From Fragilariopsis cylindrus CCMP1102 (Eukaryota; Bacillariophyta; Bacillariophyceae; Bacillariales; Bacillariaceae), in assembly GCA_900095095.1 (NCBI GenBank), contig FMBT01000352.1:124001-188000 (forward strand): a DNA stretch of 64,000 bases, given 5' to 3'. Below, piece by piece: positions 32,313 to 52,222 of the stretch (position 1 is its first letter; each line of letters opens with the position of its first letter). The notes under the pieces are model-generated. The model had not been told where the DNA came from. It worked only from the letters and a program-made list of their open reading frames with translations, and did not search any database. A program made the translations under genes and the position numbers.

Positions 32313-34047
32313 TTCTTTAGTTTCTTTCCCTAGATCATAAGCAGATTAAATCGAATCAATATCAAACATTCTTTTCCCCCTACCTCTACGAATACCTTCT
32401 TCTCTTCTCCTAAATCTTTATATCCCTTTTGTCAGAGCCTCTCTGCTGCTGTGTTTGCTGCTGCAGCTTCTTCACTTGTACAAGCAGTTAGGCTAGAAAT
32501 TGAATTCATTCGGCGGAGGTACACATTACATACATGAAGTTGTTGTAATGCTAATTTCGTCGCGTTAGTAAAATTACGCGAACACAAGGGTAGACATACT
32601 GAACGAATTGGGCTTAATAATTTCTCCGACTAAAATATTATCTAAAAAGTCATTACGATGTTGGGCAATGAATGCACATTCCTCCCCTTGTGTACAGTAT
32701 GTATGGTGGACTTAGCTAATATTATTTCTAACTATATAGTATCAGGAGGGGGAAGGGGTTGGTTAATAGTGAATATTACAAATAATATGCTGCTATCATT
32801 CTTGGTCAAGGATGATAGCAACAATAGCAAGATGCCAAATCCTGATCCATCTAGCACCAAAATATCAGCTTCGTCACTGCCACAATCATCATAAGTACTA
32901 CTTCTACATTGGCACGGGCTGGCCAGGTGCAAGCATTGCAGTCCCCTATATTTTTGGCCAATCCAGACACGTTATTGGATACATTGTATTTCTGGGAGCT
33001 AGTAGTGATTGGATTGATGTTATTCTTTTTCAACTTTTTGGTTGGTGGACGTCACAGGCAACTACTACATGCAATGATGATGACAATAACAGCAAGATTA
33101 TGGTTCTCAGAGATGTTGGTTTCAAATCTGTTGGAAGCCAGGGACTGTTGTTCTTTCAAACCTTCCAGATTATATCTGCCACTTGGCCTTGAAACAATCA
33201 GAATCAGTTTAAATTATATCACCAACGTAACGGCAGTTATGAAAGTCTGTCTGGAACATTATTTCCATCATCAACCCATATGTATTGATCCAGTGCATAA
33301 AGTGTTGGCCCCACGTGCCATGGGCCTCATATTTCAATCTTTGTTGGCGGCAACCAATGTCTGACTTATGTAGAGTACCAAGGTGAGATCATCTCAGTTA
33401 ATTTAACCAACTGCTATATGATAACACTAAAATACTATCTTGGACCATTGTAGGAAGCATTTGGCAATCCCCAACCCACTTGGTGTAATAATTATAGTGA
33501 GGCCCTCACTAGATTTTTTTAAACTTTGTGGCACGTAAGATTCAAAACAATGCCAAAAGCCCACAACGCTTCTGCTGCAATACATGTACGTTTATATCTG
33601 GTGTCAGGTCTTTTTGGAGTAGCCCTATGGGAATGGAGCGCAGCTGATCCAATTATGATTTTAAACCCCAAGGAGAAGCTGGTTGGGACTGTTTCTGGAA
33701 ATTGTTGCCGTTCCAGCTACATGGGCAATACTGGTTCTCTGCATGTGGTATAGTCTTTCTTTTTTCCATCTTCTGCAAGCATCCTATCTACCATCTATAT
33801 TTCTACATTTATTATTCCAAAGCAAACAGTCGATGTTGCTACTCCTTTCTGTGATCTCTTTTTTTCCATTGCGTTATGCTGTTCTTTATTGCTCTGCTGA
33901 TATAATTAGATGCTATTCACCATCCCCAACTAAGAATCCCCCAAGAAAAAGAGTACATCACAAGACTTTACTAGACAATAAAAGGAGGAAGAGCTGGGAA
34001 CATGCCATGCTGCTCTAAAACTAGTATTACCTAGTATTTTTATAGAG
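32313..34047. other. Transposon-relic region, no intact gene
   Basis: No frame is long or conserved enough to call. About 33720-33965 is related, in inverted orientation, to 51130-51370. Readings in several frames give Phe/Leu-rich peptides with scattered stops. This fits a decayed mobile element whose family I cannot name. Confidence 0.5.
33720..33965 (+). repeat. Dispersed repeat, copy 1 (inverted relative to 51 kb)
   Basis: Matches the reverse complement of 51130-51370 over about 240 bp, with shared blocks such as tctgtgatctctttttt and gcatgtggtatagtc. Identity is roughly 85% by eye. Confidence 0.75.
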
Positions 34048-34601: not shown

Positions 34602-35341
34602 TTAAGAGGTGTTTTATATGTGATAGAATAGAAATAATTAGCTTAACTTCTATTGGTATGCACAAAGAATTCTATTGATGCTGTATGCTTTCAAGATAAA
34701 GTGATACAGTGAAATAGGAATAGTTCACAATGACTCAATTGATTAATCCTTTACCAGTATATATACACACACAGACCCATGCCTGTAATATATACACAGG
34801 GCAGAACGGGCAGAACAGTATGCACAGGAGATGGCGGGCAGGACCTATCTATTCTTGGAGCAACAAGAAGAGTATCTATGTCCTGTTCTTGCGCAAGTGA
34901 GGAGTACATTATATTCCCTCACTACACACAATGTGGACTGAATATTATTATATGCTGCCTCTCTTTTTGTGTTTGTTTTTATTGTATACAATGCAATAGT
35001 AGTACCTCTTTCTCTGTCCTTGGGAGGGCCTTGTCTAGCTCAAGTTATTTCAAGAGACCTAACCTGAGTGTATGTATGTGTACCTATCATATTCTACAAC
35101 CCCTATTTCTATCATTCTACCTGCCTAGTTAGCTAGGTTACAATGATGTTGTACTCAGCATACATATTATTATTATTATTTTATTTGAACCACCTCTATT
35201 CCGAATAGTTGTACGATACTGTACTGGAGAAAGTTTGAATAATGAGATGGTGCGACATTGAAGTGACACGCAAACCACGACTTGACGAAATTCTACTTAC
35301 TTATAATAACTACCCATCCTACAATTCAATTTCGCGCGCGC

Positions 35342-35515
35342 GACACGAGTCGATAGACGAGTGGCGCGTGCCGAAATTGGCGACAACGAGTAACCGATTT
35401 GGAAAGCCGAGTGGAAATACTGGTCTTTGACGAGGACGAGTGAAGGCATCTCTTGGCCAAACGAGTCCAAGTAAAAGACAGTATGGACACGAGTCTTTCC
35501 ACATTGGTAACGAGT
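35342..35515. repeat. Degenerate CGAGT array
   Basis: At least eight CGAGT words, near 35346, 35358, 35387, 35408, 35436, 35462, 35490 and 35511. Most spacing is 20-30 bp, in one orientation, usually preceded by A or C. Confidence 0.6.
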
Positions 35516-35598
35516 TGGAAGCATTGTGGTATGTGCAGTTATTCACGTAATATTTGACATGCAAGTTGAAGCAACAAGTATGACGCAAATCGGCATCT

Positions 35599-35890
35599 CA
35601 GTAATTCAGAGCTTTTTTGCGTGATTTATGTGAAGAAAAAGTTTTTTTTAGCGCGTGCCCAAAATTTGAGTAATTCGGATGTGACACGTTCCACATACGA
35701 GTAATTCGAATAAATGAGACATCACTTAAGCTGACACATACCAGTAATTCATCTTATTTAGATTTCACACATATGAGTAATTCACACGTTTAGGGTTTGC
35801 ACATATGAGTAATTCATTTTGCATGCGCCAAATTCCAGTAACTCATAATTTAGGACGCAATACATAGGTTGTCACATACCAGTAATTCAT
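35599..35890. repeat. AGTAATTC array, left of recombinase gene
   Basis: Eight copies of (C/G)AGTAATTC or AGTAACTC, four or five preceded by CACATA(C/T)(C/G). All are in the same orientation, spaced about 30-70 bp. Two or three related copies lie to the right of the recombinase gene at 41235-41270. Confidence 0.75.
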
Positions 35891-36267
35891 TTTATCTAAA
35901 GAATTAGTCGCGCTGAAAATTTGGTACTTAGATGCTACCGTTGATTGACAGGTTGAACTAAAAATTCAATTCGTGTTTCAAACCGTGGACAGTTCTCTAT
36001 ACTTAAGCATATTTTCAAAAATTCATTCACGCCAAAGTTTTCCTATATAAATGATCACGATTGAAATTTTTTGACCTGCCGCCTCCTTTAACACGTAACA
36101 ACGCGTCTTATTTTCTAGAATAATCTTTTATGCAGTGTTTCTTGCAGTGATTTTTTTATACTAGATACTGCTAGTTGTAGGCTCAAAAAAAATATATTTC
36201 CACACACCAAAAGCAATTCTACTGTAACACTGGTACGTTTTATTACAATTGGTTAGTGAATTGAACC

Positions 36268-39200
36268 ATGGATGACGACGACGACGATGACGACTGCTCT
36301 ATATGCATTAGCTGTTGTACTTGTAGTAGTGCTAGTACCACTGACGTCAATTGGATTTGTTCTGATTTTAATAATTTTGAAGTCGTGATTCATGATAAGA
36401 AAACAAAACAAATTAGAAGTAATATGGGATATCGCCTTCGCAATGGGATTTGTTATAACAACTATCATGTTGATCTCACCATCGATTCTCCTCCTCCATC
36501 TCCATCATCCTCAGTTGAATTCGTCCGAGTTACTCCGTCATCTGTTGGATCTGTCATTTACGAGTAAGTTTTTATCGATTTCTTATTGACATCGATTCAT
36601 TGATACGATCGATTATAATTATTTGTATTAACACCCACTCACCTCTTCCTTCGTTATTCCATCTTCTTTGACAGCGATTGTACCGGCATTGATACTAATC
36701 AAGACCTTGATACTTGTATTTACATCAAATCTATTCGCGACAAGAAAAGGTGTGTTGTGGTTGTTTCCTTTTTGTTGTTGTCGTTGTCGTTGTCATTTAT
36801 TTGATTTCTTTCATTTGTAATATCTAATCCATTACACTCTTTTCTGCATTATTCTAATTTGTTTAATAAAAGAAATCTGTCAACCATGGCACGTTCAAAA
36901 AAGTATGATTCTGATATCGATGCAGCTAGTGATTCTGATATCGATTTTGATATCGATTCTGATTATGAAGATCTTGATGTCGACAAGCCACCACCAACAA
37001 CAGAAGATGCCTTCAACAATATCTTCCGTGGTGCGACTACACTGCCAACTCGTATTCGGAAGAAGCCACAACCTTATGGTACTACTCCTTCACCCCCCAA
37101 TCCTACGTTGAAGGAGAAGACCAAGAAGAAGATCGCTCCATTGGTCAATTCCAATCGTACTAATCAGAGTAATAATAACAGCAAAACCAAGAAAAGACCA
37201 CGAGTAAAAGCAAAAGTAGCAACAAAACAGCCATCTTCAGTTGCGCCTCTCTCAAGTATTGCTACCAACGTCCAGCCCAACGCCATTCTCTTGAATGAAG
37301 TGTCACTCTCTACATCCGTCCCAAATGGTGCGTTACTGTCTCAATTATTACTGTCTTAATTATCATGGTTGCGAGCCTACCGATTATTCATTTTGATTTC
37401 GCTAATTCTATTTACTCACATTTTGCTTCCATTCTTTCCATATTTTCAATCCTATTTTTTCAATTTTCGGCAATCAATCTTTGGATATTGCATTGATTCT
37501 TATCCTGCTTCCGTTATTGATACTGCATCATCCGTCTCCAATACATCCACCGCCTACAATTCTTCATCATCCATTCCAATGACAACAACCACATCTGTTG
37601 CCACAACGTCACTTCCTTCTACTGCCACCACATCTATCCTTGATTCATCCACCGTCCTCATACCAGCTGCTTCCATGGCCTCCGCATCTACATCAACTGC
37701 GGGTCCATCCGTTCTAACGACAGCCGGTCCGTCCTCTCCTACAACAACAACAGCTCCATCCGTTGTCACACCATCCGGCTTTACATTGGATCCAGTAAAA
37801 GCCAAAGAATTCTTCGATGCTGATGATGATGCTACCCTATCATTAACTGATTTCCTTCGGAAGATGGATTCAGTTAAAGATATCTATGGGGCCGATACTG
37901 AAATGATCAAGGGTCTTACTTCCAATACCAATAGTCATGAAAAAGCTAAACTCAAGGTCCGTCGTTGTATGTCTGTGTGTATGTCGTTGACCTGTGTATT
38001 GGATTGAGCACGCCGATGTCTTCTTTTTTGATTCCACTCACATTATTATTTCTTCCTCGTTTAATTCACAAATCTTTTTAATTTTTTTATATATAGATGG
38101 AGGCTCGATTATTCGCTTGCCTATCTACTAGTGATCTATTCAAGCACCTATCTTGTTCAGTCCCTGATCCTGAAGATCCATGTACAAAGATTCGACAATT
38201 CTATGTCTTCTGCAGAGGCACCAAGACACCCACTCGGTATAAGATACTCAATGCTGCATTGGTCCACTTCTCTACCACATTCGTTCAGCTCAAGTTTGTT
38301 GGTGTCGATCTATCGGATATCAATGTATTTTGCAAGGCTCAATATCAACCCAATAGTTGTGCTTACTATTTTCGGTGCCTGTTTGCTACTCTATCCGAAC
38401 AAGGCATCCGATTCACTCTATCTAAATCATTTAATGGTGCTGGTACGTTCCGTTTCGATTATGTATGTTGTTGTTGTGTATATATGTGTGTGTGTGTCGT
38501 TGGTGTACGTCATTGCTACAACAACTTGTTTCTATTCGACCTGTGCCCCCCTTCTTAAGGGTCAGCTATCAAGCTGAATAAGTGGCTGGTTGTTAGAAAC
38601 AAGCCATCCGACCATCCCGCCTGTCAAAGGATTGGGGTTTGTTTTCAGCATAATTTATATTGATTTATCTCACTTTTTGTTATTGTTGCTGCTTCATTTT
38701 ACAAACCAATTTAATATCTTATCAAGGTGGTCTTTGTGCTTGGTGGAAACGTAACTTCGACATCTGTCGTACTTATGATGAGGACTTTGGTGGTACTACA
38801 AGAGCGGCTACATTCGATGAGAACTTCCGGGAGAAGCGATTAGCAGCACATGAAAATCCTAATCATCCCTTCACTGTATTCGATACTGATGGCGTGACTG
38901 TCAACAACTACTCCAATTACGTCAAGGTCTTCCAAGAAGAAGTGAAGCTTTGTTGTGGTTTGCGTTCTGGGAAGGAACCTGCTGCTATCGTACGGAGCAA
39001 TTGGACTTGGTTTATTGTTCAAGAAGGTCATTTCAAAGGATGTAAGGCTGTTGTTCTTAAACCAACTCATGGTGGGCAAAAAGGGAAGGCTCTTACTATG
39101 AAGAATCATACTGCCAAGGAAACCCTCAAGCATGTCCGACATCTTCCAATTCTGAAAGGAACTGGTCTATTCGATTGCTACAAACTCCTTGATTTGATGG

Positions 39201-41065
39201 TCAACAAGTTTATGCCTCCAGACAATCTTATTAAAGGCTTACCTCGTATCTTCCGGTTAGAGGCATCCGTTCAGCAAATCAAGGTAAGACATTTTTCTAT
39301 TCGATAGTCTTGGTTGTGCTGTTGATGCTGTTGTTATATCCTTTCGTTTCAATTTTTTCTCACTTTTCATTCACTTCTTTCTTCAATTATAGGATTGGAG
39401 AATGGAATTCGGTCCCACTTGCACCTACCGTGCTAACCCACATGAAAGCAAGTGCGTTGGTGAAAACCAGTTCCGTGAATATAGCAAGGAGCTTGCTCGT
39501 GAACTTGGCTACACCAATCCTGAAACCAACACAGGACATGGTACTCGGGGTGGTGGTATTTCTCTTGTAGGCAATTCAAAATGTGGTCCTGCTACTACTC
39601 TTGGATATTCTCGTCATGGTGATCTCAAAATGACTGCCACTTATCACAAGCCCAACATGGATGATAGACTTCGGGGATCGTTAGCACTACAAAAATTGGA
39701 TGCTGACGAGATTCATATGAATGGAGAAATAGGTACGTTCAGATCTGTTTCATTTTTCTAGTGTCGTTGTACATATTTATCTTATCGTCAAATCTGTTAT
39801 TTAATATATTTCTAACTAATTGATTTTTGTTTTTTATTCTATATATAGAACAACACTTCCATACAGAGACAACCCAACCGAGGTGCAAATCAGTGCCGGT
39901 ATCTTCAACACATGATAATGATAATCCATTATTTAGCAAGCCACCTCGCCCTGCTTCATGTGCCAATGATGATGATCCACTACTCAACAACCCCATTCAA
40001 CCGATTGGGTCCTTCGATACCATTGATTCTAATACACGACCTACACGCTTGCAGAGACAAAACTCTCGAGGTACGTTCCCCTATCTAACTTTGAATGCCT
40101 TTCCTATGTATCAAGTACTGTATTCCGAAGTGCCGTCTCTTTGAGGCACGAGGTGTGTATCTATTATCATATTTTTAACTCACTTTTTTACATGTCCTCT
40201 CTTTAATTGCAATCACACTCAAGGTCGGAGCAAGTCAGTTGGGGATACACCTCCTAAACTTACTGATGATATGACTGATGAGGAACTTACTAGGTGGATG
40301 GAGCAACGGAAACAGCTACAACGACCTAATCCTATCAAGCCTACTCATCATCATCAACAACATCAACCCAATCGTCCTGCTCGTGCTCATGATGCTATTG
40401 AAGACCAAATTCAATCTCTACGACAGCAACAGGAACAAGTTTATCATCCGCGTATCGAGTCTCCTTTACAACTTCAGCAGGAAGCACATAGGCAACCATA
40501 TCACCGTGCACCTGCACCTGTTCAACGCTCGTATCTGTCTCCTGAACAGCAACAGTATCATCGTCGTCAGTCCTATCAACGTCGTCGTCCTGATGCTGAA
40601 TTCTCTCTTGATGACAGAATTGAATCACTGTATCAACAAAGAGATCGGATGTATCCTCCACCACCTCCTCCACGACAACAGTATCGTGCTGCACCTTCTA
40701 TTGACGACCGAATTGAATCTCTACTACAACAGCGTGAAGATCAGTCGTATCGTCAGCAACAGTACCATCATTTCGATCCATATGATGCCCCTCCTCAACA
40801 AGCTGTCCGTCGATCATATCCTCCTCCACAACAGGAACCAATCTATGAACAGAGAACTGAACGTGTTGCTCGTATGTCTTATTCTCCTGATCAAGGGAAT
40901 CAACTGGAATATACTGTATCTCATTCTAATCGGGTTACCCAACAACCACCTCCTCAACAGTTTGCTCGTCTACCACCATCAGGAACATATCGTCAACAAC
41001 AACTACAGTATGAACCGAATCGACCACCTCAACCACGTTCTACTACTCACTATCGTCGTCGTTAG
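36268..41065 (+). CDS. Intron-rich tyrosine recombinase (Crypton-like)
   Basis: Nine proposed exons: 36268-36563, 36675-36749, 36873-37327, about 37376-37956, 38097-38442, 38727-39283, 39393-39732, 39849-40070 and 40224-41065. All joins are in phase except the poorly resolved exon 4 start, where AG is scarce. Catalytic residues of tyrosine recombinases are visible: Arg in C-C-G-L-R-S-G-K-E (exon 6), His-x-x-Arg in G-H-G-T-R-G-G-G (exon 7), then R-H-G-D-L-K-M-T-A-T-Y with His and the Tyr nucleophile nine apart. An acidic N-terminus, Ser/Thr/Ala-rich exon 4 and a Gln/Arg/Pro-rich C-terminus surround the core. Crypton transposons encode such enzymes without reverse transcriptase, and none is seen here. 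A domesticated recombinase is the alternative. Three donors read GGTACGTTC. Confidence 0.8.
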
Positions 41066-41613
41066 GGTGTATTTTTCATTGCAAGTCGACGAAATTTTAC
41101 TTTTTTCCTCTCTACAGGTTATGAGCCCATTGCCATCACCCTTGATTTACTAGTACATGCTTTTTATAAGCACTGTACGACGTACGTACACCTAGATTAA
41201 TTAATTTTAATTAGAGCTTTTTTATTTTATTAATCTCAGTAATACACTCTCAGTAATTCGTTTGGCGATTATTTACTTAGAAAGATTTGGCACGTGCCCA
41301 AATTTACTTAGGCGTCGAACGCGTGCTTCGACGCGCATGATCAAAAATTACCAAAAGAAAAGCAAAACCATCGCAATAAAATAAAACCAAACAGAGAAAA
41401 GAGAAAGTCCAGGACAAAAATCAAAGCAGCAAACAATATTACCTCTTTGACTTGTTGTCACCATACTTGCACCTCTTCAATTCTATAAAAACACAATACT
41501 GATTACAAAGAATTCACAGAATACACCACTTTATATCTACAGTTCAAATACGCCACACACAAAACGTAACGTAACGTACAGTATTCAACAACATACTAGG
41601 AACTATCTAAAAA
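41066..41613. other. Right flank of recombinase gene
   Basis: Contains AGTAATNC copies at about 41238-41270, a block cgtgcccaaattt near 41293 also found near 35654 (left flank), and the perfect palindrome gcgtcgaa/ttcgacgc at 41312-41334. The last 200 bp are the likely promoter of the next gene. Confidence 0.6.
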
Positions 41614-43407
41614 ATGGGGTTTTTATTTGGAAGAAAAAAGAATAAAAGTGGTAATAAGGACGTCGTTGTCTTGAAGGAAATACCACAGGACCACAAAACG
41701 ACGACTACTACTGCTCGACCTAATACTACAAAGCAGTTATCATCTTCATCGATATCATTATCATCGTGTTATACATCATCTGCGAACAATAATAATCCTA
41801 CTGCTGCTACTGCTGCTGCTAGTACTACTGCTACTACTGCTAGTATTCATTCTTCAAAGACATTACCACACAGGAACAGTAAGAAGCACAGTGGTGGTAT
41901 ATTGGAAGATAAATCCAAGAAGTTGCCATCGAAAGAAAAGTCAAAGTCAAAGAAATCCTCGAAATCTAAAAAGTCGAACAAGAAGTTGTCTTCAACAACA
42001 ACAAAACAAAAACATGCTGTTAAGAATGAAGTCCAAACACAATATTATCAACAAGAATCACCACCGACAGTGGAAGTGAAAATTATTGGTAATACTAGAC
42101 ATATCATAACCACTACCATTGATGATTTAGGTCGTCATGTACAACAAACAAAGTAACAAAATTAACGAATGAGGAATTACATGAACTGGGTATTATTTTT
42201 ACTCCAGAGCAAGAATATTACGAAAAAGCAGCAGCAGCTGCTGCTGCAAAGGAGGAAGAAAAAATGTCCTATTCAAACTATTTATCTAACAGGAGTATTC
42301 AAACTAATGAGGAATTAAATAATGAACTTGGTACTTTTATATTTCATCCCAAGAAAGAATATTATGAAAAAGCCGCAGCAGCTGCTGCAAAGGAGGAAGA
42401 AAAAATATCCTATTCAACAACTATTTATCGAACAGGAGTATTCATGCAGCCTCACAAGTATCGTCCACATCCTATTCAAACTATTTATCTGATAGTAATC
42501 ATAGTAGTGGCAATAATGATGATCATCAGAATCAAGAAGAACATCGATCATCATTGATACTACATCGATCCAATTCGATAGAATCATTCGTGGATGAAAT
42601 GACAATGGATCCACATTCTGATTATTTTGATTTTATGGATCCAGATGCACCACCAGTTCCAGAAAGAAGATCGGAAAAAGAAGCCAAATACAATGACACC
42701 ACCACCTACACCAAAAGTAGTGGCACGAAGACTCCTGATACTATTAGTGTCGATGACATTATTAGCATTAGACCATCACTATCATCAGACGATAATGATG
42801 CTCCGGAAGATACTCCTACCAAAGAAGAAGACGAGAAGAAGAGGATCAAAGTCGTCGTCGTAGCAGAAGCCGCTGCCGTCGCCGTCGCCACCGCTACTAC
42901 TAATACCAATACCAATACCAATACCAATAATGATATTATTATTGATTCTAATAATATTGGAACGATATGAATATGAATATGAATACGAATATGAATATGA
43001 ATGAAACAACCAGAGATTTAGTGAAAACATTTATTGGTAAAATATGGAATCATGGTGAAATTGAGTATATACCAGTGGTCTGTTCACCATCCTTACGATT
43101 TAATGGTCGAGATGGATTAGAACGGATTGGTCATGCTGGATTTTCAAAGATGGTCTCTACTGTACGACAAAGTGTGGCTGAATATCATTGTGCCATCCAT
43201 TCGATGGTGGTGGAACATAATAAATGTTTTTGTCGTCTGAAATTTACGGGACGGCATGTCGGTGAATTATTAGGATACCAACCGACCCAAAAAATAGTAC
43301 ATTGGATGGGTGCGTCGGAATTTACTATTTGTACCAAACGGAATCAAATAGTAAAAGTATGGGAATTAGGGGATATACATACCTTAGAAGAACAATTAAA
43401 ATGTTAA
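41614..43407 (+). CDS. SnoaL-like domain protein with Ala-rich repeat (frame breaks)
   Basis: Frames 41614-42156, 42170-42555, 42555-42969 and 42967-43407 read as one protein if single bases are missing near 42150, about 42440-42480, and 42966. The N-terminus M-G-F-L-F-G could be N-myristoylated. A Ser/Lys-rich stretch follows. Then two copies of a unit with T-N-E-E-L and E-Y-Y-E-K-A-A-A-A-A-A-K-E-E-E-K. The C-terminal 130 residues match a SnoaL-like fold: V-K-T-F-I-G-x-I-W-N-H-G near the start, F-T-G-R-H-V-G-E-L-L-G, and W-E-L-G-D-I-H-T-L-x-x-Q-L at the end. SnoaL-like proteins bind or isomerise small hydrophobic ligands. The 42967 frame alone may be a separate gene. Its ATG repeat start (Met-Asn run) is unusual. 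Confidence 0.6.
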
Positions 43408-45595: not shown

Positions 45596-47143
45596 ATGGA
45601 CACCAATATTGATAACGAAGAGAATGACGGCCAGCAGCAAGCTGATGAGCAAGAGCTGCTACTGAAGCTGATTTCAATCCTTGAATGGAAGGTTACATAT
45701 CCTGCCCAAACAATTGAAAGAATTGATCATCTAGTGGTTGAGTTTCTTGAAGGTCTAGATCGGCAGCTACAAAGTGACAGCGAGGATGAGGATGAGGATG
45801 ATCGTGATCGTGTTCGTCGTCAAGCATTAACAAAAAAAGAACGGATCGCTGCTGGTCTAGATCGTCAGCTAAAAAGTGAGGATGAGGTTGGGGATGAGGG
45901 TTGGGATGAGGATGATCGTGATCGTGATCAAGCATTCACAGAAGAAGAACGGATCGCTGCTGATGCTGCTACTGCTGGGCGAAGTAGATTGATGCTACTG
46001 AAGCTGATTTCAATCGCTGAACGGAAGGTTACACATACTGCTCATACAACTGAAAGAATTGATGGTCTAGTGGATTATTTTCTTGAAAATCTTGAAGGAG
46101 ATGTCTGTGATATGTTTTGTAGTAATGATCTTGATAGCAGTCGCGACACAGAAGCCGAAGTTGAAGCTATTGTACGAGTATTTCCAAACATTTTGTCAGA
46201 AACAGTGGCAGTACAGATCCGTGGGGAATTATGTCGCTTCTATCCAATTCAATTCCTCGCATTCACAGTCGACGATAAAGATGGCATCTGGGTGATCAAT
46301 GAAAAGACTGTATCTTTTGTTCCTATTGTAGCTAGACTAGCAATAGAATTTGGTTCATTTGAGGAAGAAGAGAGAGGAGGACTATTATTATTTAATGTTG
46401 ATTATTTTTTTGAATGTGATAGTAAATGTTCCGTTGATAGTGTTTTGCAAGGTCTCACTAACAGTGTCACTCATAGTGACCCAAGTAAAGCTTCCGACCA
46501 GCATCATAATGAATTTGTCGACGGTAAATATCTACTGGTGATGGAACAATTGAGACAAAATGGTCTTCTAAAGAAAGGTGACATTCAAACGTATGGCCTA
46601 TTGAACGAACTGTGTATTCAAGATGTTACTGCGGAAAAGCGATTGCAATTTCTAGTCGAATGGGATCCAACCGTATTGACACATACCAATACACTTAGAT
46701 GTATACCACTTCATATTGTCGCAATGTATTCCATTGTAAGATTTCGGCTGGTATTCGAATATGGAATTCGTTACTATCCTCACAAGAAAGGTATCTGTTT
46801 ATTATTCAGAAAAGACGATGATGATGACACACCCTTCCAATTGGCTTGTGGAAAATTTGGATACAAAGAAGTAATGAAGGGCATAGAAGACACTCTTGCC
46901 CGTTATTCGGACACACCAATCAATATTTCAGAGGCATTAGTAATGTCAGCTATTGATGAAGACATACATTTAGACTGTGTATATTTCTTATTACGTAGAG
47001 AACCGGACGTGTTAGTAAAATTGCTATCACCATCATCATCATTATCATCGACATTGGCAGCTGGGGCTGTGGTTGCAGTGGGTACCAACGGCAACGACAT
47101 CAATAATAACAATGGAGACTCAAAAAAGCGAAAACGAACTTAA
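45596..47143 (+). CDS. Diatom repeat-family protein, paralogue 1
   Basis: An intact 515-residue frame. Residues about 20-165 contain an internal duplication: two helix units (K-L-I-S-I-x-E-x-K-V-T then T-x-E-R-I-D-x-L-V) and two copies of a linker starting with G-L-D-R-Q-L and ending in E-R-I-A-A. The C-terminal 330 residues show the ankyrin-like or helical-repeat pattern seen in many diatom proteins: G-L-L-K-K-x-D-I, then F-L-V-x-W-D-P, F-E-x-G-I-R-Y-Y-P, P-F-Q-x-A-C, and L-L-R-R-E-P-D-V-L. The tail ends in K-K-R-K-R, a nuclear signal. Function is unknown. It is head-to-tail with a close paralogue. Confidence 0.8.
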   Translation: MDTNIDNEENDGQQQADEQELLLKLISILEWKVTYPAQTIERIDHLVVEFLEGLDRQLQSDSEDEDEDDRDRVRRQALTKKERIAAGLDRQLKSEDEVGDEGWDEDDRDRDQAFTEEERIAADAATAGRSRLMLLKLISIAERKVTHTAHTTERIDGLVDYFLENLEGDVCDMFCSNDLDSSRDTEAEVEAIVRVFPNILSETVAVQIRGELCRFYPIQFLAFTVDDKDGIWVINEKTVSFVPIVARLAIEFGSFEEEERGGLLLFNVDYFFECDSKCSVDSVLQGLTNSVTHSDPSKASDQHHNEFVDGKYLLVMEQLRQNGLLKKGDIQTYGLLNELCIQDVTAEKRLQFLVEWDPTVLTHTNTLRCIPLHIVAMYSIVRFRLVFEYGIRYYPHKKGICLLFRKDDDDDTPFQLACGKFGYKEVMKGIEDTLARYSDTPINISEALVMSAIDEDIHLDCVYFLLRREPDVLVKLLSPSSSLSSTLAAGAVVAVGTNGNDINNNNGDSKKRKRT

Positions 47144-47572: not shown

Positions 47573-48925
47573 ATGGATGCCAATATTGATAACGAAGAGA
47601 ATGACGACCAGCAGCAGCAAGCCGATGAGAAAGAGAAAGAGCAACAAGCCGCTGCTGCTGCTACGCGAAGATGTACCAGATTAATTTCCGCCCTTGAACG
47701 GAAAGAAAAATTTCCTGTTGAAACAAGACGTGAAATTGATGAACAGGTCGATGAATTTCTGGATAAAATTGAAAGTACTATCCATTGGATTTTGTGGGAT
47801 ACGAAAAACCCTGATTCTGACCTGTATGATGGTTTAGATAGCACTGATGATTATCATACAGAAGAGGAAATTGAAACGGCTGTACGGTTCTACCCGGATG
47901 TCCTTTTAAAAAAGGAAAACCGTAACGAGCACGACGACGAGCACGACGACGAGCACGACGACGAGCACGACGACGAATACTTTTTGCATCGTCCTATCGA
48001 CGTCGACCGAACGATTGGGAAGCATCCTATCCAAATTTGCGCATTCATACTCCGCGAAGACGACACCTGGGGGTGCAATAGCAAAGCTGTACCGTTTATC
48101 CCTCTCTTGGTTAGGATAGCAATAGAGCTCGGTTTGTATGAGGAGCAAAATCGAGGAGGATTATTGATTGAAGATGAAGACGGTGCTAATGTTTTGCAAA
48201 ATCTAATGCGTAGTGACACGATCGAACGTAATAATCAGGAACATCATGCACTTGTCGATGAAAAATATTTACAAGTTTTGATACAATTAAGAAAAATGGG
48301 TCTTCTAAAGAAAGAAGACATTCAGAGGTATGACTTACTCAATATGTTGTGCACACGCAATACGCTGTGCAATCAAGATTATTTTTCAGAAAAGCGATTT
48401 CGATTTTTAGTTCAATGGGATCCAACCCCATTGATAAAAGCTGATGTAACTGGACATCTACCAATTCATATCGTTGCATTTTATTCTCTCATTCGGAGTT
48501 TCCAAATCGCATTCGAATCTGGAATTCGTTACTATCCTAAAAAGAAAGGAATTCATCTGATTTTCCGCAAAACTAATAGAAGTTTTACACCCTTCCAAAT
48601 GGCTTGTGAGAAATCGGGACATGAACAAGTGATGAAGGTCATAGAAGACACTCTTGTTCGCTATTCGTACACACCAATCAATATTTCAGAGGCATTAGTA
48701 ATGGCAGCTATTGACGAAGATATACATTTAGACTGTGTATATTTCTTATTACGTAGAGAACCGGACGTGTTGGTAGAATTACTATCACCATCATCATTAT
48801 CAATATCAATATCACCGACATTGAAAGCTGGGGCTGTGGCTGTGACTGCAGTGGGTACCAACGGCAACGACATCAACAACAATAGCAATGGAGACTCAAA
48901 AAAGCGAAAACGAAAAAGAGGGTAA
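47573..48925 (+). CDS. Diatom repeat-family protein, paralogue 2
   Basis: The ATG at 47573 aligns with the start of paralogue 1 (M-D-A-N-I-D-N-E-E-N-D). An in-frame upstream TTG is not the start. The product has 450 residues. Compared with paralogue 1 it lacks the internal duplication and has an Asp/Glu/His repeat (about residues 118-137). The same C-terminal pattern is present. The last about 120 bp of the conserved part (I-N-I-S-E-A-L-V to E-P-D-V-L) are nearly identical at the DNA level to paralogue 1, more than the rest. It ends in K-K-R-K-R-K-R, a nuclear signal. Function is unknown. Confidence 0.8.
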   Translation: MDANIDNEENDDQQQQADEKEKEQQAAAAATRRCTRLISALERKEKFPVETRREIDEQVDEFLDKIESTIHWILWDTKNPDSDLYDGLDSTDDYHTEEEIETAVRFYPDVLLKKENRNEHDDEHDDEHDDEHDDEYFLHRPIDVDRTIGKHPIQICAFILREDDTWGCNSKAVPFIPLLVRIAIELGLYEEQNRGGLLIEDEDGANVLQNLMRSDTIERNNQEHHALVDEKYLQVLIQLRKMGLLKKEDIQRYDLLNMLCTRNTLCNQDYFSEKRFRFLVQWDPTPLIKADVTGHLPIHIVAFYSLIRSFQIAFESGIRYYPKKKGIHLIFRKTNRSFTPFQMACEKSGHEQVMKVIEDTLVRYSYTPINISEALVMAAIDEDIHLDCVYFLLRREPDVLVELLSPSSLSISISPTLKAGAVAVTAVGTNGNDINNNSNGDSKKRKRKRG

Positions 48926-50489: not shown

Positions 50490-52222
50490 CTTTATTATAT
50501 TATATTTGTTATTGAAGTTTATAAAAGAAGAAGTTACGGTATACTGTACGGTAGTTACAATATTTTTATACAGAGTGCAGTTGTTCCTCCGACAAACAAC
50601 AAAGCGACGACAAGAACCCCAACAAACAAATATTGAGCAATAATGACCGATAAACTTTGTATGATGTATAATATGTACTATGCATACTTACATACCTATG
50701 AGACATACATAGTCCTTTCTAGCTTACACATTCGACTCTCATCTCTCTCTTATAATCTGCTGAGTCTCATATTAGCCTTTAGATAATACTATACTGTTAC
50801 CACTTGTACCTTTCCTCCAGGGTCTAGCCCACTAGTTGTACAACAACGAAACAAAACATAACACATAGGACTACTCCAAATGTAATTGGGTGACAATATA
50901 TAATAAGCAAGTTGGCACTACAGGAAATAAGGAGTCTGGAACTCTTTGTTCAATGATGGAGAATTTTTGAATCTATACTATTTTGTGTATGCTATATGCG
51001 CTGCATCTTCAAGATTAAAGTCCACATACCATAGTAGTCAATGCAATAGCACCCCTGTCAAAAAAAATTGAAACTCAAAGATCAATCAGCATCAACACAC
51101 GACTAAGTGAACAATAACCTGATACGCAGCGCATAGAGAGATGGACCGAATGAATAATTTTTCTGGATTCTTAGTTGGTGATGGTGAATAGCCGCCAATT
51201 GTGTCAGCAGAGCAACAAAGAACAGCATAATGCAATGGAAAAAAAAGAGATCACAGAAAGGAGTAGCAGCAACATCATTGTTTGCTTTGGAGAAATACAT
51301 ATAGAGTAAAGATGATAGATAGGATGCCTGCAGAAGATGGAAGAAAGAATGACTATACCACATGCAAAAAACCGGTATTGCCTATAGTGTCTAGTACAAT
51401 ACAAATTAAATTCATTGACAAACAGCCTTATTTGAACAAACTTAGAATAATAGATAGATTGTGGAGGCACTTGGCCTGCCTTATTAGGTTGGAATTTGCC
51501 ATAAGATGCTTGTTTTAATTGATTTGATGGTGTTAATCCATCCTCATAACAACAGTTGTCTTTGATGTCAGGGACACAAGATCAGAATATTAACCTCAGA
51601 GTCCACTGGAATAAACTACTATTACTTCTTGGCAAAGTCCATTTTTTTTTTTATTATGAACTATGCTGCTTTCAACAAGTATAGTAGTAAAATAAAATAG
51701 ACCCAACTGCCAATCAAAATTGGGGGCTTTTTGAATTTTCTTGGGCTGAATGAAGATATCTAAAGCCACAGTGAAGTACAATGTGACAATAGGGGGAGAA
51801 CTCAAAATAGGGTGGAGTAAATTCTGGAAGAACAACACAAAGGTATTGATCTTGTGTCAAAGAGTAGTGTTCAAAAGGGCTCCTTTCATAACAGATCAAG
51901 TAAGTCAAGTGTTAGTCCAAAAGTGTGTAAAGCCATACTGCAGACTAGAAGTTGATAACAACGATGGGAGCTACATAACATGTAGTACTCTGTGGTTTAT
52001 TCCATTCAGTCCCTATAGTGACAATTGGTCCTTGAAATATAATCTCACAATTATACATGTTATATTGCACTATTGCAAGAATTTATCATCTTTAGCTTGT
52101 TATTTGTGAGTAGCATTATTTCTATTATAAGCTATCTATCATTGATATTGACGAGTGAGTCTATACTTGTGGATGTCTGACTGAGTGCAACGTTTTGAGA
52201 ACTATTCCCGATATTATTTCTG
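50490..52222. other. Intergenic region with transposon relic
   Basis: 1.7 kb without a credible gene. It contains the inverted counterpart of the 33.7-kb repeat. Small frames at 51282 and 51750 read through the relic and are not called. Confidence 0.55.
51130..51370 (-). repeat. Dispersed repeat, copy 2 (inverted relative to 33.7 kb)
   Basis: The reverse complement matches 33720-33965 over about 240 bp with scattered substitutions and small indels. Part of a degenerate mobile element of unknown family. Confidence 0.75.

Follow-up and report, generated by a model that had tools for sequence, protein, structure and literature searches.

Closest described elements and the element under study

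The closest described systems are presented here as they appear in the excerpts of the cited papers that were consulted. Cryptons of the CryptonS group are reported from seven oomycetes and one diatom, Phaeodactylum; their direct repeats have a length of 5-6 bp and mostly read TATGG, some of them carry a C48 peptidase, and other Crypton groups are reported to include non-autonomous derivatives (Kojima and Jurka, PMC3212892). In two diatom genome papers, Crypton appears among the classes of a repeat table or list (PMC5859163, PMC7466962). Fungal Starships are elements of about 20-700 kb with cargo, 18 of the 20 in the study consulted have terminal inverted repeats, and their Hephaestus family has the target TTAC(N7)A (PMC12153272). 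In this study, we analyzed a 64,000-nucleotide stretch of the genome of the diatom Fragilariopsis cylindrus CCMP1102 (contig FMBT01000352.1, positions 124,001 to 188,000; C462:124001-188000 in the labels used below), which is termed the window. It contains an element at positions 35298-41351 of the plus strand with an intron-rich gene at 36268-41065. The element is a real, multi-copy, mobile DNA transposon, and it is very probably one that is moved by a tyrosine recombinase and works like a Crypton.

Compared with CryptonS as described in the excerpts, the window element has in common a putative recombinase as mobility gene, short terminal direct repeats, the lack of inverted or long direct repeats, and a stramenopile host. 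It differs by its 3-bp TAC repeats, which contrast with the 5-6-bp, mostly TATGG repeats of CryptonS, and its protein has no Pfam match to the C48 peptidase found in some of them. Further differences are the eight introns, the TACNNNARTA target, and an apparent exchange of the catalytic core between elements. Like the Hephaestus Starships, the element has a putative tyrosine recombinase and ends in TTAC, and the circle junction predicted for two of the subfamilies described below (A and B) would read TTAC(N7)A, which equals the Hephaestus target. The genomic target found here, TAC(N6)A, is one base shorter than that motif, and unlike the Starships described the window element has a size of 6 kb and a single gene, with neither cargo nor terminal inverted repeats. 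Starships as a class are giant, cargo-bearing elements whose captain recombinase lies at the 5' end, a description that the window element does not fit. The likeness to Hephaestus is a lead, as motifs of this length may match by chance. A literature search, beyond whose scope most subscription papers lay, revealed no title or abstract on a TAC-ended element of this kind.

Tyrosine recombinases are also encoded by DIRS-like retroelements of the same genome. These carry an RNase H-like frame and a recombinase that is recognised by Pfam, whereas the window element has neither, and the combination of reverse transcriptase or RNase H with a recombinase that marks DIRS elements was not found in it. 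Nine of the ten loci matching the recombinase family PF00589, which are all those that were read, look DIRS-like. Elements that look DIRS-like are located at C60:27705, C81, C635, C306:646722, C523, C166 and other places, and their recombinase frames reach up to 420 amino acids.

Copies, ends and insertion sites

The ends of the element were fixed by comparison with C464, C530, C635 and C254, giving a unit of 6054 bp that starts and ends with TAC. Both ends, TACTTATAATAACTACCC on the left and AAAATTAC on the right, are found again in C464 and the non-autonomous copies C530, C635 and C254. The left TAC (35298-35300, plus strand), presumably the recombination site, is repeated directly at 41349-41351. 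As in Cryptons, these short terminal direct repeats are not accompanied by terminal inverted repeats or long repeats, and the two termini are not complementary. The recombinase-like gene is the sole gene called in the unit, since no long frame beyond its span was taken as a gene. All full copies that were aligned contain this same gene between the same ends and have a size of about 6-6.5 kb without later inserts.

A count of genomic copies, suggested in the initial annotation of this locus, was obtained with the exon-6 protein as query. In the genome (67.9 Mb in 818 contigs), relatives were found in at least ten places (11 matches, two of which are parts of one copy); as the best candidates alone were scored, copy counts are lower bounds. 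Three subfamilies can be distinguished: A, with the window element and C464 (exon-6 protein 95% identical); B, with three copies on C306, one on C297 and one on C90 (55-56% identical to the window element); and C, with C61 (37%), a degenerate copy on C79 and a fragment on C60. The copy nearest to the window element shows about 82% nucleotide identity. The left part of the C464 copy contains an insert of about 4.6 kb (C464:15058-19698) with similar sequence close to both of its edges, resembling a long terminal repeat element. Five shorter copies of 1677-2212 bp have both ends, which are of the A type in C530 (2052 bp), C635 (2091 bp) and C254 (1677 bp) and of the B type in C139 (2212 bp) and C688 (2143 bp). 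The longest stop-to-stop frame in C530, C635 and C254 has at most 137 amino acids, and in blastn comparisons with the window element the matches of these three were restricted to both ends and part of intron 8, with no exon matched.

The three copies on C306 are arranged head-to-tail and are 99.5-99.9% identical, showing that the array is recent. Neighbouring copies overlap by exactly 3 nt, with one TAC per junction. TAC was present at both ends of all nine insertions for which both flanks were read, the C306 array being counted once. The flanks were joined into nine pairs and used as queries against the genome; for six pairs this gave a homologue that runs across the junction and lacks the element. 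C491 represents the empty homologue of the C464 site, in which the flanks are continuous with a single TAC. Together, the multiple copies with exact ends, the short direct repeats, the tandem array, the non-autonomous copies and the empty site identify the unit as a transposon.

The target TAC is followed by RTA at position +4 in eight of the nine sites with both flanks, compared to a background frequency of 0.0436 in the window (binomial 1.1e-10, before correction for a motif that was chosen after looking, RTA having replaced GTA after the sites had been seen). Two further right flanks fit the motif, C688 with AGTAGTA, which was read after the motif had been proposed, and C575 with TTACATA, which had been seen earlier and was not used in forming it. 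The 11 right flanks read belong to a larger number in the genome; right ends also occur on C144, C91 and C447, and further left ends on C303, C439, C624 and other contigs. The left ends of the elements themselves read TACNNNNARTA and are thus one base longer than the target TACNNNARTA.

The gene and its product

In agreement with the initial annotation, which had proposed a single intron-rich gene, the gene at 36268-41065 extends from an ATG at 36268 to a TAG ending at 41065 and is composed of nine exons and eight GT...AG introns. The intron phases are compatible and the spliced frame comprises 1140 codons with no internal stop, the junctions being predicted from the sequence. All exons lie on the plus strand. 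Exon 1 (36268-36563) encodes an acidic N terminus and is followed by exon 2 (36675-36749), exon 3 (36873-37327) with a basic, lysine-rich stretch, exon 4 (37667-37956), and exon 5 (38097-38442), which codes for a probable core-binding domain. The putative catalytic residues are located in exon 6 (38727-39283), with Arg at 38963-38965 and Lys at 39080-39082, and in exon 7 (39393-39732), with HGTR at 39537-39548, His at 39615-39617 and Tyr at 39642-39644. Exon 8 (39849-40070) is separate in subfamily A and fused with exon 7 in the B copies aligned, and exon 9 (40224-41065) contains Gln/Pro-rich repeats and the stop codon. The three donors previously reported to share one sequence do so, as the introns starting at 38443, 39733 and 40071 all begin with GGTACGTTC.

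The acceptor of intron 3 was set by comparing five copies. There is no AG where the T-rich stretch of this intron ends, and the fitting acceptor is a CCAG followed by CTGCT, with exon 4 starting at 37667. This CCAG is present in all five aligned copies and fits the phase; the sequence upstream of it is interrupted by an in-frame TGA in two copies and carries indels in one. A two-gene model, in which a first frame ends with TAA at 37357-37359 and the recombinase starts at 37579, was rejected because that stop is absent from C90 and that ATG from three of the five copies, and because use of the CCAG acceptor yields a single frame again. The lengths of exons 1-7 modulo 3 match those of the window copy for seven of seven exons in C464 and for six of seven in each of C306_1, C297 and C90, as aligned. 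Exons 1-7 of C464 translate without a stop, and in the same alignment C306_1, C297 and C90 each have one exon out of frame. As most intron positions are common to A and B copies, the introns belong to the element itself. For exons 5-7, comparison of the window copy with C464 (414 codons) gave rates of 0.051 for nonsynonymous (dN) and 0.305 for synonymous (dS) substitutions, and with a dN/dS of about 0.17 these exons are under purifying selection between the two copies.

The catalytic codons occur in the expected order (R 38963, K 39080, H 39537, R 39546, H 39615, Y 39642). This confirmed the set of R, HxxR, H and Y that had been noticed across exons 6 and 7, added a Lys to it, and also confirmed the spacing of nine residues between the last His (39615) and the Tyr (39642). 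The proteins of the window element and of C61 are 38% identical and both retain R, K, HxxR, H and Y, so that the R-H-R-Y set characteristic of Cryptons is present in the window element and in subfamily C. No Pfam domain of a reverse transcriptase or a DDE transposase was found in the spliced protein, as would be expected for a Crypton and as had been stated in the initial annotation.

For comparison with known enzymes, a profile built from one sequence of each of the three subfamilies was aligned to 87 tyrosine recombinases. Of these, 80 were collected from viral contigs by a search with XerD, and the others were six enzymes of bacteria or phages and a DIRS-like one; near-identical loci from an IntS search were left out. 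The catalytic positions were those of XerD, which were checked for conservation. R, H, R, H and Y fell into register, corresponding to five of six catalytic residues counted on the window row. At least five of six residues were in register in only 3 of 2400 column shuffles, all 3 of which scored below the profile, and with the reversed profile the number of residues in register was zero. An earlier profile comparison with 7 recombinases had given an E value of 0.19. Judged by the conserved residues in register, and with no significant match to a hidden Markov model (HMM), the protein is most likely a divergent tyrosine recombinase.

Proposed mechanism and alternative explanations

In the proposed mechanism, the 1140-amino-acid protein would bind subterminal repeats and cut with its Tyr at TAC, and the element would be excised as a circle that keeps one TAC. 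The predicted circle junction is TTAC joined to TATTAGTA or TTATAATA. Integration would occur by recombination of the TAC of the circle with a genomic TAC before an ARTA half-site (TACNNNARTA). The end of an existing element (TACNNNNARTA) may act as target as well, which would lead to a head-to-tail array, and shortened copies might be moved by the protein in trans. We infer the circle and the strand exchange with the tandem array and the empty site as indirect support, and the designation as working like a Crypton fits when the element is set against Cryptons by their published descriptions. Eukaryotic tyrosine-recombinase transposons leave scarcely any footprint, which makes their crossover rules hard to read. 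Here, a single genome offers elements with precisely defined ends and a crossover of 3 bp, together with a target motif, an array, an empty site and shortened copies, and therefore the circle model is directly testable by polymerase chain reaction across the predicted junction.

Several results weigh against this interpretation. Neither a circle nor a transcript was observed. Five of the six empty-site homologues, although both flanks are present, deviate at the junction, which makes the footprint unreadable, and for three of the nine joined flank pairs no element-free homologue was found in the genome. Counted as GTA only, the target motif is located at +4 in five sites and at +1 in three, and the window copy itself is the exception among the 11 right flanks read, ten of which have RTA at +4. 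With respect to the protein, the first catalytic His is replaced by Gln (QGNR) in subfamily B. Searches of Pfam, PHROGs and PDB sequences gave no significant match to a recombinase family; the HMM search proposed in the initial annotation yielded nothing in Pfam beyond a chance-level match to KIF21A (E 7.2), and PF00589 had ten matches elsewhere in the genome, nine of them above the cut-off, and none to the window element. The Arg, His and Tyr residues, whose failure to align with any recombinase the initial annotation had named as a refutation, are in register, but the profile score taken alone is weak (E 0.053, reached by 91 of 2400 column shuffles) and the catalytic Lys is out of register. 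AlphaFold2 predictions for single exons were uninformative, with a pLDDT (predicted local distance difference test) score of 33.4 for exon 6 and 46.6 for exon 7.

Some of these points are what one would expect from a mobile element of another chemistry, such as a DDE transposon that duplicates a TAC target or an element with an unknown nuclease, in which the R/H/R/H/Y set would be coincidental. Some DDE superfamilies make 3-bp target duplications, the protein matches no recombinase HMM, and the profile score was equalled by the shuffles mentioned. We nevertheless consider this explanation unlikely, because terminal inverted repeats are absent, the tandem copies share one TAC as expected from circle integration, and five of six catalytic residues in register were rare among shuffles and never coincided with the score. 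Less probable still is a host-adopted recombinase gene that is no longer mobile, which the initial annotation had offered beside a Crypton-type transposon. The intact spliced frame of the window copy, its eight introns and the low dN/dS value in exons 5-7 could be understood in this way, but the gene sits inside a mobile unit with both ends, its relatives are found on other contigs, in tandem, shortened or frame-broken, and the intron positions shared by A and B make the introns the element's own. It was the transposon option that gained from the copies, exact ends, array and empty site. There is equally little to recommend the idea that the unit is the remnant of a larger recombinase-coding element (a DIRS-like retroelement, a polinton-like virus or a virophage) whose other genes were lost. 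DIRS-like elements with a recombinase are indeed present in the same genome, but PF00589 recognises their recombinase and not that of the window element, the full copies aligned share one gene and the same ends at the size of about 6-6.5 kb given above, and no relative of the window element was found in viral or prokaryote contigs. The DIRS-like recombinase, too, had no match in the viral contigs.

A tyrosine-recombinase DNA transposon working like a Crypton is thus our preferred explanation. It is quite possible, though somewhat less likely than not, that it represents a separate lineage outside the described Crypton groups. Such a lineage would be distinguished by its TACNNNARTA target, by crossover at a 3-bp TAC, by a gene rich in introns with catalytic exons that elements exchange as a module, and by a conserved, structured intron 5 RNA that evolves more slowly than the neighbouring catalytic exons.

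Mosaic structure and intron features

The similarity between copies varies along the element. In exons 5-7, the DNA of the window copy and that of C464 are 86-94% identical, and comparisons of A with B give 56-61%. Exons 1-2 of C464, however, are closer to those of C306_1 (94-95% identity) than to those of the window copy (76-79%), and exon 9 shows 79-84% identity across A and B and 79% within A. The identity of C297 to C90 is 99-100% from exon 4 through exon 9 and falls to 85-88% in exons 1-2 and the left end. These values indicate that parts have been exchanged between elements, apparently including the catalytic core among elements with like outer parts. Phages swap integrase modules, and the exchange of the catalytic core resembles this process.

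Intron 5 contains a structured block (38511-38648, plus strand) that is highly conserved in A, B and C, with about 11 nt absent in the window copy; the catalytic exons around it show 37-56% protein identity. Of 200 shuffles, 199 folded less well than the block (z -3.18). A consensus structure derived from six sequences contains 44 pairs; compensated changes affect two of them, and both occur in C464. It had no match in Rfam, and over the entire element Rfam gave one sub-threshold match (sR5, E 1.2). The block may be homogenised by recombination, or it may act as RNA. In intron 8, a GTGCC..GGCAC inverted repeat (40126-40150, plus strand) has related sequence in C530, C635 and C254, whose resemblance to the full element is otherwise mostly confined to the ends; its hairpin is no better than shuffles, 42 of 200 of which fold as well.

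Repeated motifs near the ends

Seven ACGAGT motifs in a single orientation are located at 35345-35515 (plus strand), with an eighth at 35697. Other A and B elements that were scanned also have several at the left end, apart from C254, which has just one. The motif GGCGCGTGCC by the left end (35363-35372, plus strand) has its counterpart GGCACGTGCC by the right end (41289-41298, plus strand). GGCGCGTGCC or a close variant was found by both ends in eight of ten elements scanned, by the right end only in C254 and by the left end only in C139. On grounds of position, the ACGAGT run, as arm sites, and the GGCGCGTGCC-type motifs are candidate recombinase sites. Another motif, AGTAATTC, occurs seven times at 35600-35888 (plus strand) and an eighth time at 41252, close to the right end. 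Five of the seven left copies sit within CACATA[CT][CG]AGTAATTC, and neither C464 nor the B elements scanned yielded the motif.

Surroundings of the element

The neighbouring genes in the window are ordinary nuclear genes. Ten frames were scanned, and the matches included an isopropylmalate dehydrogenase with a presequence-like start, an S41 peptidase, a CIA30 protein, a tocopherol cyclase and a clathrin adaptor small chain. The presequence-like start and the tocopherol cyclase are in keeping with a photosynthetic stramenopile such as a diatom; a search of the assembly for RuBisCO gave no match. Adjoining the element, the region 41611-42420 has a Ser/Thr/Lys-rich reading frame with no Pfam match and a 69-nt block that is present twice. 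Diverged direct copies of a gene-like stretch are located at 46474-47109 and 48211-48882, about 1.75 kb apart. In addition, a 79-nt inverted repeat pair (33721-33799 and 51307-51385) is 89% complementary, and its arms, 17.5 kb apart, flank the element.

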